Origin: Caulobacteraceae bacterium
Lineage (GTDB): Bacteria; Pseudomonadota; Alphaproteobacteria; Caulobacterales; Caulobacteraceae
Direction of reading: 5' to 3'
Length of the DNA: 64,000 bases
Assembly: GCA_947476555.1 (NCBI GenBank)
Contig: CANJRI010000007.1
Location: 1-64,000, forward strand
The translations under genes and the position numbers were made by a program. Shown here one piece after another: positions 56,527 through 63,773 of this stretch. The first letter of the stretch is position 1; each line of letters begins with the position of its first letter. The notes below the pieces were generated by a model, which ran no database searches, had not been told where the DNA came from, and saw nothing but the letters and a program-made list of their open reading frames with translations.

Positions 56527-57342
56527 CTAGTTCGCGGTCGGTGGAGCGCTCACCCGTAGCTGCTCGACACGTTGCAAGGCGGCGAGCGTGGTGGGATCGC
56601 CAGGCACGAGCTTGAGCGCGGATTCATAGCTCTCCTTGGCGTCGTCGTACTGCTTCTGCTCGACCAGGACCGAGCCCATGCCGCGCCACATGAGCGCGGT
56701 GTCGGCGGGGTTGAGCTCGGCCTGAACGGGATAGTTCCGCGTCCAGGCGGCGTAGGCCCGCAGGGCTTCCGGGAGGCGACCCAGCGTGGCCAGAGCGCGG
56801 GCCCGCGCCTCGACCATCTTGGCGTTGTCGGGCTGAATGGAGGCGCCGACATTGAGGACGCTCAAGGCGGCCTCGGTGTCCTTCCGCTCGAGCGCCAGGG
56901 AGCTGAGGGCCAGGGCGGCGAAGCCGTACACATTGGGCTCGAAGCTGACTTTGACGGGCCCTGGAGGATCGGTCTTCGGCAGGTCCTTGGCCATGGCCGC
57001 GGCGATGGGCATGCCGATCTCGCGGTCGGCGCGCACCACCAGCTGGCCCTTGTAGTCCTCGTACAGCCTGAACTCGGTGGGGACGTGCGACATGATCAAC
57101 TTGAGTTCGCGTTCCACCTTGGCGAAGTCGGCGTTGGTCTTGGCCTGGGCCACCTTGTCGTAGATCCCCCGATCGAGGGCGAGGAGCCCGTCCTCGGCGG
57201 CGTCGCGCTTGGGCGGCGGGGCGTCGAACACGACCTGGGTGTCCGACGCCGGTTGCGCGCAGGAAGGCAGGGCGGCGCCGGCGAAGGTCGCCACCAGGCC
57301 GAAGACAAGCAGAATGCGATAGGCCACCGGGCGCCGCTCCAA
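56527..57342 (-). CDS. Exported TPR-repeat protein
   Basis: A 271-residue protein. The signal peptide ends near LPSCAQ; the Cys is not in a good lipobox. The mature part has about three TPR-like helix pairs, clearest at residues 130-265 (YGFAALALSSLALERKDTEAALSVL, ALMWRGMGSVLVEQKQYDDAKESYESAL). TPRs bind proteins. It is the last gene of the minus-strand exported cluster beginning with DUF1592 and is separated from the gene before it by 128 bases holding two hairpins. Confidence 0.8.
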   Translation of the reverse strand: MERRPVAYRILLVFGLVATFAGAALPSCAQPASDTQVVFDAPPPKRDAAEDGLLALDRGIYDKVAQAKTNADFAKVERELKLIMSHVPTEFRLYEDYKGQLVVRADREIGMPIAAAMAKDLPKTDPPGPVKVSFEPNVYGFAALALSSLALERKDTEAALSVLNVGASIQPDNAKMVEARARALATLGRLPEALRAYAAWTRNYPVQAELNPADTALMWRGMGSVLVEQKQYDDAKESYESALKLVPGDPTTLAALQRVEQLRVSAPPTAN

Positions 57343-57395
57343 TCAGGGACGGGACAAGTCTGTTCGATGATCGGGGCGCTTAGTCAACCCAGCGT

Positions 57396-57462
57396 CCGGG
57401 CGTGTCGGCGACGCCCGGGATCGGGAGGACTGGAGCGTAGCCTGCGCGGCTAGCGGCGCAGG
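57396..57462 (-). other. Two hairpins in the TPR gene leader
   Basis: CCGGGCGT-N7-ACGCCCGG (57396-57418) and CCTGCGC-N8-GCGCAGG (57441-57462) lie in the 128-base gap between the 385-residue protein gene and the TPR gene. Neither has a T-run in the direction of transcription. They could shape transcript stability or protect upstream mRNA. Confidence 0.45.
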
Positions 57463-57470
57463 TCCCCGGC

Positions 57471-58628
57471 TTACCGAACGGCGTAACGATCAGGCCGCGG
57501 CGCCTCGGCCCGCTGCGGGCGCGAAGGGCCGCCCGTCTCAGGCCGGTCGATGAAGGCCGGCACGGCGGTGATCGTCCAAGTCTGGGAGATCCGCGTCCGC
57601 TTGCCGTTCTTGGCCTTGTCGATGTCGGTGTCGGCGTATTTCTGCAGCGCCTGGTAGATGCCGGCGACGTCGCCCGACCCCAGGCCTTCGCCCTGGGCGG
57701 CGTAATCGCCGAACGGGAAGTAGATCATGGTGATCGGCAGATAGCCGCCGACGAAGCCTTGCAGGCCGCCGTCCGGCTGGAACTTGAGCCGCAGCCGCGC
57801 CTGCTTGAAGTCATAGATCGGCTGAAGGCGGGTGCTGGCGATGAACTTGAACTGCGGGGTGACCTCGGAGAGGAACACGCCGTCCTTGATCCTGCCCTTG
57901 AAGGTGGTGGTGGCCTTCGTCAGGTTCTTATTGGGATCGATGGTGTAGGTGACATTGCGCTGGAAGCCGGAGGCGCTCAGCACGGGGCTTTGCTGGCCCC
58001 GGTAGTAGGTCACCGTGACATTGTCCTCGTTCTGCATGTCGAGCGGGGCGTCGCGGTTGTTGTCCACTTCCAACAGCCAGGAGTTGCCCTCGATGTAGTG
58101 CAGCCAGCGCAGCTGGGTGTTGCCGACGGGGGCGTCCAGGGTGCCGCGGGTGCGGTCGATGCAGCCGAACACGCGCGCGGCCAGGTTATCGACGCCAGCT
58201 TCCTTGGTCAGGGGGTCGGTGTAGTCCATCGGCCCGACCTTGCCGTCCAGGTTGAAGCCGAAGCCTTCCTTCCCCTGCTCGAGCTTGATCGGCGGTTCCG
58301 GAACGGAGAGGGGGTGCTTGTAGACAAACACCGGCTTGCCGTCCTTGCGGCCGCGCATGGAGGCCTGCTCGCGGTAGTGCTGACCAAATTCCTGCGACTT
58401 GACCATGCGCTCGATGTCGGCCTGCGCCATGCCCAGGCCCTTCATCGAATAGGCGAAGACCTCGTGGGCGATGGGGCTCTTGCCCTCGGGGCAGCCGCTG
58501 TCGTCGACGTTGTTCATCGCCTGCGACCAGACGCTGATGACGTAGCCCTTGCTCTCGGCCTGGGCGACCTGACCGGCGCAGAGGGTCAGGGCGAGGGCCG
58601 CAGCGGGAATTGCGATCTGCTTGCGCAT
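57471..58628 (-). CDS. Exported protein of unknown function, cluster partner
   Basis: A 385-residue protein, not assigned to a named domain. The signal peptide ends near VAQAESK. The segment FNLDGKVGPMDYTDPLTKEAGVDNLAARVFGC (roughly residues 125-156) has an Asp-rich loop like a calcium site followed by a G-V-D-N motif and Cys. Much of the C-terminal half is beta-rich (TYYRGQQSPVLSASGFQ, LRLKFQPDGGLQGFVGGYLP). It lies 24 bases after the COG4315-like repeat gene in the cluster, so it is very likely cotranscribed. Confidence 0.75.
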   Translation of the reverse strand: MRKQIAIPAAALALTLCAGQVAQAESKGYVISVWSQAMNNVDDSGCPEGKSPIAHEVFAYSMKGLGMAQADIERMVKSQEFGQHYREQASMRGRKDGKPVFVYKHPLSVPEPPIKLEQGKEGFGFNLDGKVGPMDYTDPLTKEAGVDNLAARVFGCIDRTRGTLDAPVGNTQLRWLHYIEGNSWLLEVDNNRDAPLDMQNEDNVTVTYYRGQQSPVLSASGFQRNVTYTIDPNKNLTKATTTFKGRIKDGVFLSEVTPQFKFIASTRLQPIYDFKQARLRLKFQPDGGLQGFVGGYLPITMIYFPFGDYAAQGEGLGSGDVAGIYQALQKYADTDIDKAKNGKRTRISQTWTITAVPAFIDRPETGGPSRPQRAEAPRPDRYAVR

Positions 58629-58652
58629 AAGAACGGTCTCCAGCCTTTAGAT

Positions 58653-59996
58653 TCAGGGCACCAAGGCGCGCCACATCAGACCCATCCCGAATTCGGTCGG
58701 CAAGGCTTCGTTGCCGTATCCGTCTTCGAACTGGATCAAATACTGTTCGTTGCCGTCCAGGGACCCGGGCCGCTCGTTGGCGTGGGTGTAGATGGCGGAA
58801 TTCTTGTAGGCCCACTGACGCTTGCCGTCCGGACGATCGTAGATCGACCAATAGCCTTGCGGCTCGGCGTTGGCGGGGGCCAGGTACGGACGCCATTCCT
58901 TTTCGCAGGACTGGCTGCAGTGCTTGAGCCCGAGCGACGCGCCGATCCCGGGATCCATCGTGCCATTCGGCGGACGCATGTGATCCGGCACGTACTGCTC
59001 CAGCGCACGATCGCGGTAGTAGAGCGTCATGCCGGTGCGCGCATCGACCATGCGGCCGATGCTGAGGTTGTCCTTCTTGATCGCCACCTGCGAAGGCTTG
59101 GGATAGCGCAGGACCACCGCCGCGGCCATCCCGGGGGCCAGGCCCTCGCCGTTGAGATCGCCCGTGCTGACGTCGCAGGCGCAGCTGTACAGGGCGCCGC
59201 CGCGATAGGCCCACTGCCGGGTGGCGTCCGCGCGCTCATTGATCGTGAAGTCGCCAATCGGCTCCGATAGGCCGGAAGCCTCAAGCGGCGTGAACGCCCG
59301 GGGCAGCGCCTGCGCCTGCTCGGGCGTTCCCGAGAACACGTAGAGCGGCTTGCCCAGAGTGTTGGCGGCGGTGATGCCGACGGCGAGCACCTGGCCCGGC
59401 GCCACCCGGTACTCGGCCACCCCGATGCTGTACGGGGTCTTGATCCAGCTCTTCGGCGTCACCCGCACCAGGCGCATGCCGTTTTCGCCGCCATCCCGGA
59501 CCTCGAGGCTGGGGGTGGCGGGCGCGCGAAATGGGGTCTGGTTCCACTCGGGCATCACGAGGGGCGCGTCGACGCCCTCACCGTCGGCGGCGGTGTAGGC
59601 CAGGCGGCCCTGGAAGGCCCACTGGCTCCCGCCGGAGGGCAGGCCGACCAGCGTCCAGTCCTTGGTCGGGACCGCCTTGGGCGGGGCGATCGCCGGCCGC
59701 CATTTCTCCAGGCAGGCGCCCACGCATTCCGCGCCGGCGGCCTGGGTGAACAGCGGACGTCCCGCCTCATCGGCAAAGAGGACGGACGTCGTATTGCGGT
59801 TCCGGGTTTCGGCCTCGCCGTCGTTAGCGCTCGAGGTGACCTTCGCCGTGCCGGTTCGGATGCCAACCGGCAGGTCCGAGGCGACATTGGCGGTGGTCGT
59901 CGCCGCTTGGGCGGCGGTCAACGGGGCGGCCACGCACAGGAGCGCGCCCAGGCCGAGCGCCGATGCGGAGAAGAACTGAGACCGTCGCATCGCCAA
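58653..59996 (-). CDS. Exported protein with three COG4315-like repeats
   Basis: A 447-residue protein with a signal peptide (to about AAQAAT). Three copies of the secreted lipoprotein-15/COG4315-type unit can be read: around residues 70-135 (VLFADEAGRPLFTQ, CVGACLEKWRP, QWAFQGRLAYT), 215-270 (GKPLYVFSGTPEQ, QWAYRGGALYS) and 325-405 (GMTLYYRDRALEQ, CSQSCEKEWRPYLAP, QWAYKNSAIYT). The first and third keep a Cys pair; the second lost it. It lies five bases after DUF1552. The function of this repeat is unknown. Confidence 0.75.
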   Translation of the reverse strand: MAMRRSQFFSASALGLGALLCVAAPLTAAQAATTTANVASDLPVGIRTGTAKVTSSANDGEAETRNRNTTSVLFADEAGRPLFTQAAGAECVGACLEKWRPAIAPPKAVPTKDWTLVGLPSGGSQWAFQGRLAYTAADGEGVDAPLVMPEWNQTPFRAPATPSLEVRDGGENGMRLVRVTPKSWIKTPYSIGVAEYRVAPGQVLAVGITAANTLGKPLYVFSGTPEQAQALPRAFTPLEASGLSEPIGDFTINERADATRQWAYRGGALYSCACDVSTGDLNGEGLAPGMAAAVVLRYPKPSQVAIKKDNLSIGRMVDARTGMTLYYRDRALEQYVPDHMRPPNGTMDPGIGASLGLKHCSQSCEKEWRPYLAPANAEPQGYWSIYDRPDGKRQWAYKNSAIYTHANERPGSLDGNEQYLIQFEDGYGNEALPTEFGMGLMWRALVP

Positions 59997-60001
59997 CTCC
60001 C

Positions 60002-61348
60002 CTAGGCCACGATTTCTGTGATGGTGCGCGAGGTCTCCATCGAGTTGGTGCCGAACTTGTTGATCGGCACCTTGAAGACCTGCATCGCCGTCAGCCCGAG
60101 GCGCGTGCCCGGATCGCCCGCCAGATCCAGGTGCATGCCGGTCTTCAGCAGCCCGCCGGCCCGTCCCGCCGTGAAGGCCGGAATGTTGGACAGCGAGTGG
60201 GTGAAGGCCAGGCCGTTGTCGGAGTTCATGACCACCAGGGTCTGGTCGAGGAGGGTGCTGTCACCTTCCTTGAAGCTGTCCAGCATCTTGACGAACTCGG
60301 CCATCTGGATGGTGGTCTGCATGCTGTAGAACTTGCACTTCTCCTGGGGACCGGTGAGCGGCTCCTGGTGCGACCAGGTGTGATAGGAGGTCGCCTCGCC
60401 CGCCACCCGAAGGTTGGGGGTCGAATCCGAGAACATCATCCGGATCGAGCGGGTCTGGTCGCAGAGCAAAGCATGGGCCAGCAGCTGGCCCATGAGCTTA
60501 TGGGTCCGGATGGTGACGTCGAGCTGGTCGCTGACGGCGTATTCGTCCGGATTGTCCTTCGGCCGGACGCAGGCCTGCAGCGGCTCGGGCTTGGTGAGCT
60601 GCATGTCGATCTGCTGCTCCAGCTGGCGCAGCGAGGTGAAATACTGGTCGAGCCGCTGGCGATCCGCGGCGCCCAGGTCCAGCTCCACGGCCGTACGCTG
60701 GTCCTTCAGCGCCGAGATGACGCTGCGCTTGGCCATGACCTTCGGATCGGGCGTGAAGTTGGCCGCATTGGGATCGGTGAAGTCCGCGCCGAAGATGCGC
60801 GCGTACATCGCCGCCGGATTGACCTCGTTGGACTGCGCGACGCCGCCGTCCAGGAAGCTGACCGAGGTGCCCGGATTGCCGGTGCAGGACGCGCCGAGCG
60901 ATTTGAACCGGGTGCCGCCGCCGATCTGGTCGGAGATCATCGTATCGACGCTGGGCGCGGAGACGGTGGCGCCCGCCGGCACCGTTCCCTGCCAGGTGCC
61001 CTGCCAGCCCGTCACGTGGGGCCGGTTGGGCTTGCCGTCCGGCAGCACGTTCATGTGGGAGAGGATGTTGATCTTGTCCTTCACCACTTCGAGCGGGGCG
61101 ATCTCTTCGGGGAGGGTGACGCCCTTGAGGGAGCCGGTCTTGTCCGGCCACCACTGCTTGCCGGCGGTGAAGCCGTTGCCGAAGAACCAGTGGGCGAAAC
61201 GGACCCGGCGAGGGGTGCCGTCGGCCAGGGCGACGCCGTTCCCGTCCAGGAAGCAATCCAGGAACGGAAGCGCCAGGGTGACGGCGGATCCTTGCAGGAC
61301 CCCGTGCATCACGCGCCGGCGGCTCAACAGCCTTTCGGTGGCCCGCAT
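60002..61348 (-). CDS. DUF1552 domain protein, Tat-type export
   Basis: A 448-residue protein. A twin-arginine-like signal (LLSRRRVMHGVLQGSAVTLALPF) leads the DUF1552 domain: RFAHWFFGNGF, SHMNVLPDGKPNRPHVTGWQGTWQGT, and LVVMNSDNGLAFTHSLSNIPAFTAGRAGG near the C-terminus, which recalls the metal-site end of the related DUF1501/sulfatase-like fold. The ATG at 61348 has GAGGAAGG upstream; the frame is open to 61411. DUF1552 normally pairs with DUF1592 proteins in Planctomycetes and Myxobacteria. The activity is unknown. Confidence 0.85.
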   Translation of the reverse strand: MRATERLLSRRRVMHGVLQGSAVTLALPFLDCFLDGNGVALADGTPRRVRFAHWFFGNGFTAGKQWWPDKTGSLKGVTLPEEIAPLEVVKDKINILSHMNVLPDGKPNRPHVTGWQGTWQGTVPAGATVSAPSVDTMISDQIGGGTRFKSLGASCTGNPGTSVSFLDGGVAQSNEVNPAAMYARIFGADFTDPNAANFTPDPKVMAKRSVISALKDQRTAVELDLGAADRQRLDQYFTSLRQLEQQIDMQLTKPEPLQACVRPKDNPDEYAVSDQLDVTIRTHKLMGQLLAHALLCDQTRSIRMMFSDSTPNLRVAGEATSYHTWSHQEPLTGPQEKCKFYSMQTTIQMAEFVKMLDSFKEGDSTLLDQTLVVMNSDNGLAFTHSLSNIPAFTAGRAGGLLKTGMHLDLAGDPGTRLGLTAMQVFKVPINKFGTNSMETSRTITEIVA

Positions 61349-61407
61349 AGCAACCTTCCTCATCTCTGGCGCCGCGTCAGAGGCTCGGCGCGTTCTTCTT
61401 ATGGCCG

Positions 61408-61428
61408 CCACCCGGCGTCGCCGGGTGG
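61408..61428. other. Hairpin between DUF1592 and DUF1552 genes
   Basis: CCACCCGGC-GTC-GCCGGGTGG, a perfect nine-pair stem with a three-base loop, in the 89-base gap between the two genes. There is no T-run after it in the direction of transcription. It could set the 3' end or stability of the DUF1592 message within the operon. Confidence 0.5.
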
Positions 61429-61437
61429 ATCGAATTC

Positions 61438-63099
61438 CTAGGACGCGGGGGCGCCGGACTTGTCCGTCGTCACCCGATAGAAACCAGGATCGAGCGCGAT
61501 ACGCCGCATCAACCCTGAGATCTTATAACCCGAAGCGGTCCAATCCTTAAGCAGTTGATCCCGCACCCACTCCCGCTCGCCGTTCGTGGCCGGCCGGCCG
61601 ATGGCGTAGTTGTAGAGCCTGGTGGTCAGACACGCGGTCGCGCGCGGGTTGTCATGCAGCGCCTGGCCGAGGCCGCTGGCGTCTTTGTAGGAGACGCCAT
61701 CCAGGATTCCGCTGGCGTCGATCGGCTTGCCGGCGTCACGCGTGCGGAATTGGCCGCTGGTGTCGTAGTTCTCCAGCGCCAGGCCGAGCGGGTCCATCAG
61801 CCGGTGGCAACCGGCGCAGGCCGGATTGCCGGCGTGGGCCTCGATCGCCTCGCGCATGGAGGAGGACGGGCCGGCGGCCTCGAACTTGGAGAAGTCGACG
61901 TCCGGCGGCGGCGGCGGGATCTCCTGGCAGAGGAAAACCTCGCGCAGGGCCTTGCCCCGGAGGGTCGGCGAGGTCTTGCCCGAACCGGAATGCAGGGCGG
62001 CGAAGCTGATCTGGGTCAGGACACCCGCCTGGGGCATGGAGTCCGGCAGCCGGATCGAGCGCCATTGCTGGAAGTCGCCCCATTTCCCGGCGAGGGGGAT
62101 GCCATAGGCGGACGCCAGCAACGGCGTGACCTGGGTATCCCTGACCGTGAAGATGTCGCGGTAGTCGCCGTTGCGGACCACCAGCTCGTCGACGATCGTG
62201 CGCAGGGCCTGTTCCTGCGCCTGCTTGGCGATGTCGGCGCTGTAGTTTGGATAAAGGGCCGCGTCCTTGCTGACCGCCCTGAACATGTCGAAATGCAGCA
62301 TGTCGGCGAAGTAGGCGCGGACACCGGCCGCAAAGCGCGGCGAGGCGATCAGCCGGTCGACCTGCCTGGTCAAGCCGGCGCTGGTGCTCAGCTCACCGCT
62401 TTCCGAGGCGCGCAGCAGCTCCGCGTCAGGCGACGAGCCCCAGAGCAGCAGGCTGAGCCGTTGGGCCTTGCTCTGCGCCGTCAGCCGATAGGCGCCGGCC
62501 CGATCCGGATCGGGCTCGGCCCGGTCCTGCACGAACAGGAAGTTCGGCGAGGTGAGCAGCGCCGTCACGGCGAGTTGGATGCCGTAGTAGAAATCGCCGG
62601 CCTTCGTGGCGCCCTCGGCCGCGATCTGCAGCTCGCCGGCCAACTCCGCTTCCGTCAGCGGCCGGCGGAACAGCAGCCGTCCGGCCTTAGAGAGGAAGGC
62701 GCGGGCGCAGGCCTGATCGGGCGCCTTCGCATTGGCCGGCTTGCAGGAGATATATTCATCGCGCCGGGCCGGATCGACGACCTGCTGGGCGATGCCCATC
62801 GCCATGCGATCGTACTGTTCCAGGCCGCCGGGGGTGACCGTGGCCTTCGCGGCGCCTACCGCGATCAGCTGGGCGTCCCGGGTGTCCGGCTCGAACCGGC
62901 CGCCCAGGGTTACGTCCCCGAACACGTCCTTGATGGTGTTGCGGTACTGGTCTTCGGTGAGCCGGCGCATCGCCAGCGGCCCGCCGCTCAGCTCGCCCTG
63001 CGGACCGTCGGCCGCCACGCCAAGGCCAAGCGCCGCCATCGAAATCGCGGCTCCGGCGAGAAGCGCCCCGATGTGCCGTTTGCCAAGCGCCTTACGCAT
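61438..63099 (-). CDS. DUF1592-family exported c-heme protein
   Basis: A 553-residue protein. The signal peptide ends near LGVAADG. The order fits DUF1587/1595/1592/1588/1585 proteins: MRRLTEDQYRNTIKDVFG (N-terminal), RAFLSKAGRLLFRRPLTEAEL, RLSLLLWGSSPDAELLRAS, PTLRGKALREVFLCQEIPPPPPDV, and the heme-like CAGCHRLMDPLGLALENYD (CxxCH near residue 430). Such proteins are abundant in Planctomycetes and Myxobacteria and likely act as periplasmic or surface redox enzymes. It is the first gene of the exported cluster. Confidence 0.88.
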   Translation of the reverse strand: MRKALGKRHIGALLAGAAISMAALGLGVAADGPQGELSGGPLAMRRLTEDQYRNTIKDVFGDVTLGGRFEPDTRDAQLIAVGAAKATVTPGGLEQYDRMAMGIAQQVVDPARRDEYISCKPANAKAPDQACARAFLSKAGRLLFRRPLTEAELAGELQIAAEGATKAGDFYYGIQLAVTALLTSPNFLFVQDRAEPDPDRAGAYRLTAQSKAQRLSLLLWGSSPDAELLRASESGELSTSAGLTRQVDRLIASPRFAAGVRAYFADMLHFDMFRAVSKDAALYPNYSADIAKQAQEQALRTIVDELVVRNGDYRDIFTVRDTQVTPLLASAYGIPLAGKWGDFQQWRSIRLPDSMPQAGVLTQISFAALHSGSGKTSPTLRGKALREVFLCQEIPPPPPDVDFSKFEAAGPSSSMREAIEAHAGNPACAGCHRLMDPLGLALENYDTSGQFRTRDAGKPIDASGILDGVSYKDASGLGQALHDNPRATACLTTRLYNYAIGRPATNGEREWVRDQLLKDWTASGYKISGLMRRIALDPGFYRVTTDKSGAPAS

Positions 63100-63176
63100 G
63101 CCGACTCCCTATCCCCTTCTCCGCCCAGATTGGCGGGTAGGATTTCAGCGTTCCACATCCGCTTTCTTTGAGTATC

Positions 63177-63269
63177 TGTCAATACGCAAGCGATTGCGAC
63201 TCTTACTGACAAGATGACGCACAGAACTTGGTTTCCAGGGTGTTTTGCGAATCCGTTCTGAGCGTATTC
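63177..63269 (-). promoter_or_regulatory. Candidate promoter/operator region of the exported cluster
   Basis: The 221-base gap upstream of the DUF1592 gene is AT-richer than its surroundings. It holds TTGACA on the minus strand (63182-63177) without a convincing -10, and an imperfect 21-base palindrome GAATCCG-N7-CGTATTC (63249-63269, six of seven arm positions paired). The palindrome could bind a regulator. Neither has been tested. Confidence 0.3.
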
Positions 63270-63320
63270 AGTAAATCTCAGGACAATAACGCGTCAGCAA
63301 AACCCGCTCAGCCGGGCCGT

Positions 63321-63773
63321 TCACCCCGGCGGCAGCATCACCGTAAGCTCATTGGTCTTGGTCATGAACTTCACGCCCTTCACCCGGCCGTCGGTGTAGC
63401 GGTTCCAGGCGCCTTCGGCCTCGATGGCCGTGGGGGTCTCGCCCGCCGCCGTGGCCGGCTTGGTGGCGATCACGTCGACCTCGTAGATGCCGTCCGCGGG
63501 CGTGGCCGGATAGATCCGGGGCAGGAAGGCCGGATCGGCCCAGCCCGGCCCCGCGGACATGCCGGAAGCCTTCAGCACCACGCCGCCGGCCTGGCTGGGG
63601 GTCACCGAGCCCGACTGCACGGAGAGGATCTGCTCCTGCCCGGCGTACATTGGGGCGACCCGGGCCATGGATTTCCTCGGCGGCGGCGGCGCGGCGACCT
63701 CTTCCTCGGCCCCACCGCAACCCGCAAGCCCCAGGCAGGCCGCCAGGCCCACCGCCATGATTAGGCTGCGCAT
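63321..63773 (-). CDS. Hypothetical lipoprotein
   Basis: A 150-residue lipoprotein, not otherwise recognised. The signal MRSLIMAVGLAACLGLAGC has a good lipobox (LAGC). A Pro-rich linker follows, then a small beta-rich domain (YEVDVIATKP, GVKFMTKTNELTVML). The ATG at 63773 has GGGAGGAG upstream; the frame is open to 63839 without support. It lies upstream of the DUF1592 cluster on the same strand, 221 bases away, and could belong to it. It is divergent from metG. Confidence 0.7.
   Translation of the reverse strand: MRSLIMAVGLAACLGLAGCGGAEEEVAAPPPPRKSMARVAPMYAGQEQILSVQSGSVTPSQAGGVVLKASGMSAGPGWADPAFLPRIYPATPADGIYEVDVIATKPATAAGETPTAIEAEGAWNRYTDGRVKGVKFMTKTNELTVMLPPG

Follow-up and report, generated by a model that had tools for sequence, protein, structure and literature searches.

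The PSCyt/PSD proteins and the families found with them have long been a puzzle in Planctomycetes and Verrucomicrobia, in which a PSCyt3/PSD (DUF1592) protein with one haem site lies side by side with a second protein that we take to be DUF1552. The DUF1501-DUF1800 pairs, in which the gene for a Tat-type protein lies beside that of a second family, are alike by analogy only, as the families differ; DUF1501 is presumably also paired with DUF1549/DUF1553. In the available sections of the published accounts, the PSCyt/PSD gene pairing was noted and the functions were stated as unknown (PMC5615132), DUF1501-DUF1800 pairs were also seen beside bacterial chitin synthase genes (PMC5122149), one paper referred to a previous proposal that the sister DUF1549/DUF1553 protein has a redox function, and the sections of PMC6004670 and PMC7789669 held nothing on function. 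Here we describe a proteobacterial gene set found in the window, by which we mean the whole 64,000-nucleotide stretch that was analysed (positions 1 to 64,000 of contig CANJRI010000007.1, here C7, of Caulobacteraceae bacterium assembly GCA_947476555.1, a 2.56-Mb draft of 114 contigs). This set, referred to as the module, differs from the Planctomycete-type pair in having a distinct DUF1552 subfamily, a COG4315 protein, a 385-residue exported protein that matched neither Pfam nor NCBIfam, labelled ORPH, and in some loci electron carriers. The literature searched, which lacked most subscription papers and all preprints and supplements, contained no description of the module and no text naming DUF1552 and DUF1592 together. 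The system probably oxidises compounds outside the inner membrane. With its fixed set of partners and the electron-carrier genes that overlap with it in some strains, the proteobacterial version offers a handle on the older problem, and it is present in cultured strains, for example Chol11 and Sphingobium herbicidovorans MH.

A recurrent set of genes for exported proteins

The module genes of the window were encoded on the minus strand in the order DUF1592 (61438–63099), DUF1552 (60002–61348), COG4315 (58653–59990) and ORPH (57471–58628), followed by a TPR gene and with a lipoprotein gene upstream. A sequence-only reading of this DNA had described these adjacent minus-strand genes, and the DUF1592 protein with one CxxCH, the Tat-type DUF1552 protein, the three-repeat COG4315 protein and the 385-residue protein were all present. 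The intergenic gaps were 89, 5, 24 and 128 bases in gene order, which bore out the tiny spacers of 5 and 24 bases in that reading, whereas the first gap was longer than it had implied once the better DUF1552 start was used. The ATG at 61348 was preferred to the listed GTG at 61411, to which the open frame extends, because a clean twin-arginine start (SRRRVM) results. The COG4315 frame, starting at ATG 59990, is open to TTG 59996. All four module proteins of this copy carry export signals in their sequences. Scans for promoter-like sites (0, with 0.6 in shuffles) and terminator-like sites (7, with 4.2 in shuffles, standard deviation 2.3) were uninformative.

Complete four-gene sets were found three times in this genome, on C7 and twice on C38. 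The C38 sets, whose proteins were 51–85% identical to those of the window, were encoded one on the plus strand, in the order DUF1592-DUF1552-COG4315-ORPH, and one on the minus strand, in the order DUF1592-DUF1552-ORPH-COG4315. A further DUF1592-DUF1552 pair was cut by the end of C43, the DUF1592 paralogues being those on C38 (two) and C43. ORPH was present in six copies (C7, C38 twice, C3, C17/C30 and C81/C112); this is six and not eight as contig-end pieces sharing 149 (C17/C30) and 58 (C81/C112) identical bases were merged. Two additional DUF1552 copies were encoded on C38, with no DUF1592 in view, and on C59; the latter (locus L040, 2669–3856), a 395-amino-acid protein without the histidine-motif stretch, could be a natural variant or could have decayed. 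Several contigs stop at or near module copies, and related copies may have broken the assembly at these ends.

Across 200 genomes of the order, this one included, ORPH was found in 12, DUF1552 in 15 and both in 11 (Fisher p 4e-14), such that DUF1552 was present in 11 of the 12 genomes with ORPH versus 4/188 without it. Weak matches were those to ORPH in genome G198 and to DUF1552 in G147; the other DUF1552-only genomes were G136, G144 and G165. A scan of species genomes was queried with the ORPH-linked DUF1552, as the ORPH alignment was too diverse for use, and gave at least 568 relatives, of which the best 79 loci, from 63 assemblies, were kept. Profiles at E ≤ 1e-5 (fragments and some weak COG4315 matches included) identified DUF1592 in 78, ORPH in 70 and COG4315 in 56 of these, and the expectation of the sequence-only reading that accessory genes would accompany DUF1592/DUF1552 in other genomes held for ORPH and COG4315. 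The commonest orders were DUF1592-DUF1552-COG4315-ORPH (22 loci) and ORPH-DUF1592-DUF1552-COG4315 (10 loci), and the records with the module bore the labels Alpha- and Gammaproteobacteria, Deltaproteobacteria (L089), Acidobacteria (L111) and Vicinamibacteria (L076). When the ORPH, DUF1552 and DUF1592 proteins were compared set by set, their pairwise distances correlated (rho 0.54–0.68, 69 sets), with 0/500 permutations as high. In a search across the phylum (349 genomes, E ≤ 1e-10), 2 genomes had ORPH and 3 the DUF1552 subfamily, which is too few for statistics. Additionally, 15 plasmid records had a DUF1552 match, and in the four regions examined ORPH, DUF1592 and DUF1552 were consecutive (4/4, by profile). 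As the grouping recurs in this genome and in 70 of the related loci, it is not due to chance; judged from these comparisons, DUF1592, DUF1552, ORPH and often COG4315 are a real, widespread and co-inherited exported unit.

Analysis of frames outside the module revealed CxxCH motifs in 29/395 within 3 kb of it versus 2/296 beyond (p 8e-6), although 17 of the 29 belonged to a single tri-haem family, a few of the rest are unlikely to be genes and the related genomes are not independent. HiPIP was encoded in 13 of the 79 loci, never more than 1.8 kb from a module gene, and a tri-haem cytochrome c, with three CxxCH each, in 18, of which 17 were within 2.3 kb. Cytochrome c' was found in nine loci and cytochrome b561 in five. 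At least one of the four carrier kinds was present in 28 loci; among the 42 loci whose flanks both exceeded 2.5 kb, this was so for 22. The representatives checked against Pfam were confirmed (three HiPIP and one each of tri-haem cytochrome, c' and b561). In strain Chol11 the genes for ORPH, DUF1592, DUF1552, cytochrome c' and b561 overlap by 4, 1, 4 and 4 bases, and on pTomTYG46a and pMSHV the ORPH-DUF1592-DUF1552 genes are followed by genes annotated cytochrome c' and cytochrome b561, worded as cytochrome c and cytochrome b/b6 on pMSHV, where the ORPH gene is annotated in two pieces. In the fourth plasmid record, which has no gene annotation, the set had no other CxxCH frame close by. An exported flavin mononucleotide (FMN)-dependent dehydrogenase was also encoded near the module in three loci (one confirmed by Pfam, two by like sequence). 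This context supports a redox nature of the module.

The overlapping fourth gene of pTomTYG72a was considered as a cytochrome and rejected, as Pfam identified an exported glyoxalase-fold protein. At L140 (13353–13832), the gene for such a protein, confirmed by Pfam, shares 4 bases with the DUF1552 gene, at the place where other plasmids have cytochrome c'; a similar-looking exported protein was seen by eye between DUF1552 and ORPH at L062 (11776–12282).

The four module proteins

The DUF1592-type haem protein of the window has 553 amino acids, a Sec-type N-terminus and the domain series DUF1587-1595-1592-1588-1585. It matched PSCyt3 (E 1.2e-27), PSD4 (2.3e-26), PSD5, PSD2 and PSD3, all above the curated Pfam cut-offs, which together with a single CxxCH places it in the DUF1592/PSCyt3 family. 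The haem c attachment site reads CAGCH (61804–61818). Its residues C428, C431 and H432 were invariant across 34 aligned homologues, and CxxCH was retained in 82 of the 83 homologues longer than 450 amino acids. Met was absent from the invariant or nearly invariant columns of the 34-sequence alignment. Sequence searches for relatives of DUF1592 and COG4315 in the PDB gave none that was convincing.

The 448-amino-acid DUF1552 protein matched its Pfam family (HXXSHH) with an E value of 1.8e-43 (149.7 bits, curated cut-off 30). In place of the H-x2-S-H-H motif the window protein reads HTWSHQE, keeping the first two His and not the third; the ORPH-linked subfamily mostly reads H-x2-T/S-H-E-E, with acidic residues following the second His. 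Six DUF1552 proteins from ORPH-bearing genomes were 38–43% identical to that of the window, and three unlinked ones, from G136, G144 and G165, 25–27%. Foldseek comparison of the predicted model (mean predicted local distance difference test score, pLDDT, 89.5) revealed 28 chains of the sulfatase/alkaline phosphatase superfamily at E ≤ 1e-3, the best match being 8eg3 (E 8.6e-6, probability 1.00, template modelling (TM) score 0.35). DUF1552 is therefore predicted to have the sulfatase/alkaline phosphatase fold, an assignment made at the level of the superfamily and not of a close relative because the query TM-scores were ≤0.40 among the 50 matches listed; a sequence-profile search against solved chains gave no match at E ≤ 1. 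The sequence-only reading had noted that the cluster came with no sulfatase, which is correct for a separate sulfatase gene, but that fold is the one predicted for DUF1552 itself.

H111, D135, H323, H327 and H384 were invariant in 61/61 DUF1552 sequences and H406 was present in 59/61, and all six were retained in the three unlinked proteins. A Thr/Ser at position 113 was found in 59/61 but in only one of the three unlinked proteins. We assume that H323-x3-H327, D/E377 and H406 may be placed where alkaline phosphatase holds its metal ligands, although what we take to be the usual ligand pattern of the superfamily is not plainly kept.

ORPH, the 385-residue protein, has GVDN and D-rich motifs and invariant cysteines at positions 46 and 156. 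Because C46 and C156 are invariant, a disulphide between them is suggested, and the conserved D/N/G loops suggest calcium binding. No match to Pfam or NCBIfam was found up to E 0.1, and the confidently predicted model (pLDDT 86.3) matched no PDB fold at E ≤ 1e-3. Attempts at naming the protein by fold were rejected, the best candidates being a PknI sensor domain and phenolic acid decarboxylase (both E 0.097), followed by weak avidin-like and other matches; naming by sequence was equally given up, with no convincing match in Pfam, NCBIfam or the PDB. ORPH is a widespread exported family with a predicted fold that had no solved relative in the PDB search. Paralogues in genome G167 were located at L018, L023, L025, L027, L029, L031, L033, L035 and L036, at least those at L029 and L033 lying, by eye, beside TonB-receptor-like fragments.

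The COG4315/Lipoprotein_15 protein, which has a Sec-type N-terminus, belongs to its Pfam family by the match of the whole protein (E 1.3e-11, 44.2 bits against a cut-off of 24.4), whereas the single segments matched weakly and below cut-off (E 0.017, 1e-4 and, for the middle one, 2.3e-5). When 16 relatives were aligned, a conserved Trp motif marked each of its three repeats. The SCO0930-type COG4315 lipoproteins share the repeat family, but the match to their NCBIfam model NF040526 was 38.9 bits, far under the cut-off of 275, and the window protein differs in having three repeats, in showing no lipobox and in its place within the module.

A candidate periplasmic oxidation system

An oxidation system is proposed because the four-gene set recurs and often adjoins electron-carrier genes. 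With a little more belief than doubt, we read the set as a conserved periplasmic oxidation module in which electrons would pass by way of the DUF1592 haem to a carrier that varies. ORPH, possibly calcium-stabilised and beta-rich, and the COG4315 repeats would bind or present an organic substrate, and DUF1552, as a Tat-exported metalloprotein on an alkaline phosphatase scaffold, would form the substrate or metal site. DUF1592 would accept electrons through its single haem c and hand them to the carrier of the lineage, which may be cytochrome c' with the membrane cytochrome b561, the tri-haem cytochrome c or HiPIP, and from there they would reach an oxidase or the quinone pool. Each paralogous set would have a substrate of its own, perhaps a hydrophobic or ring compound. 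A redox system with the haem protein as electron partner had been put forward by the sequence-only reading; the retention of CxxCH and the carriers, in some loci within one overlapping operon, support that much of it, but the TPR protein and the lipoprotein that it listed alongside are not members. A bolder form of the idea, which we regard as doubtful, makes DUF1552 a new redox metalloenzyme, its alkaline phosphatase scaffold carrying a hydrolytic site turned into a histidine-rich metal centre, with the DUF1592 haem c as partner and ORPH as a protein of new fold that binds the substrate. If true, the principle would extend to the multi-copy DUF1552/DUF1592 (perhaps DUF1501/DUF1549) sets of Planctomycetes.

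Several observations weigh against an oxidation module with a haem-to-carrier route. None of the carriers was found in 51 of the 79 loci, including 20 of the 42 whose flanks both exceeded 2.5 kb, and no CxxCH frame besides DUF1592 was found at 50–64 kb of the window, in the adjoining stretch or on C38, HiPIP and b561 not being searched there. The unit itself is not constant. ORPH was missing from nine loci (L073, L074, L082, L085, L091, L108, L110, L115 and L126), among them all four labelled Myxococcales (L073, L085, L110 and L115), the five others being records of less than 10 kb; COG4315 was missing from 23, some of which were cut by contig ends. Genome G167 has nine ORPH copies versus one DUF1552, and the ORPH copies on C3 (near a contig end), C17/C30 and C81/C112 of the present genome showed no partner in view. 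The 79 loci were, moreover, conditioned on this DUF1552 subfamily and some assemblies are related, so that the counts are not independent, and the distance test leaves shared species history in.

Some of these points could be explained if the genes were mere neighbours, brought together by chance or hitch-hiking on catabolic islands, as the homologues on Sphingobium and Novosphingobium plasmids, the genomes with ORPH alone and the Myxococcales-labelled loci would allow; with two main gene orders kept across several labelled classes and phyla, correlated distances among the module proteins and overlapping genes, this seems very improbable. An account in which the genes do work together, but by hydrolysis, would make DUF1552 an ordinary periplasmic phosphatase/sulfatase-type hydrolase or transferase and the haem protein a structural partner or sensor. 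The 28 Foldseek matches place the model with sulfatases and lipoteichoic acid synthases, and T/S113, at the start of a predicted helix, could be the nucleophile. That residue is lost in two of the three unlinked proteins, however, the TM-scores among the matches listed are low and CxxCH frames are enriched next to the module, and we consider a hydrolase unlikely.

The direction of electron flow could also be the reverse of that proposed, with quinol feeding DUF1592/DUF1552 through b561 and cytochrome c' to activate oxygen or peroxide, as in an oxygenase or a peroxidase-like enzyme. The b561 and c' genes do follow within the same operon, the lack of a conserved Met as second haem ligand in DUF1592 points to an open or bis-His site, and the conserved DUF1552 histidines could hold a non-haem metal. 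HiPIP and dehydrogenase-type tri-haem cytochromes c, however, are carriers that we take usually to accept electrons from periplasmic oxidations, and we rate the reverse flow slightly below the hydrolase in probability. Oxidation with DUF1592 as electron acceptor is retained as the preferred reading.

Substrate leads and neighbouring genes

Named hosts in the species scan included Novosphingobium sp. Chol11, Sphingobium, Hydrocarboniphaga, Solimonas, Steroidobacter, Aestuariicella and Parahaliea. Of the 15 plasmid records that matched DUF1552, 11 were from Sphingobium isolates of the Tom series. In the available text on them, the Tom-series Sphingobium are alpha-tomatine degraders (PMC10653915). 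A TonB-receptor-like protein cluster was seen by eye in 12 of the 79 loci. As a mere lead, hosts and neighbours may point towards ring compounds as substrate. The words 'cytochrome' and 'DUF' were absent from the available main texts on Chol11 (PMC12175502) and on tomatine-degrading Sphingobium (PMC10653915).

In the window, the TPR gene (56527–57342, minus strand), which has TPR Pfam matches and is separated from ORPH by the 128-base gap, and the gene for a putative lipoprotein (63321–63773, minus strand), which has an LAGC lipobox read in the sequence and no Pfam match, were both judged to lie outside the module. Neither had a BLAST homologue in the 79 loci (E ≤ 1e-4) or in the examined contigs of this genome (E ≤ 1e-3), and membership of either in the cluster was rejected.

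Other genes were observed near module copies. Between the convergent copies on C38 (L038, 3452–4862) lay genes for a solute-binding protein (SBP_bac_11) and an exported-looking DUF4440 protein. CHRD-type exported proteins were encoded at L057, L104, L112, L130 (confirmed by Pfam) and L132, and creatininase-like proteins at L075, L092, L114, L116, L123 and L125 (confirmed by Pfam). GH106-like (alpha-L-rhamnosidase family) genes were found at L070 (1497–3890, confirmed by Pfam), L079 (4623–7826) and L083 (13539–16673).

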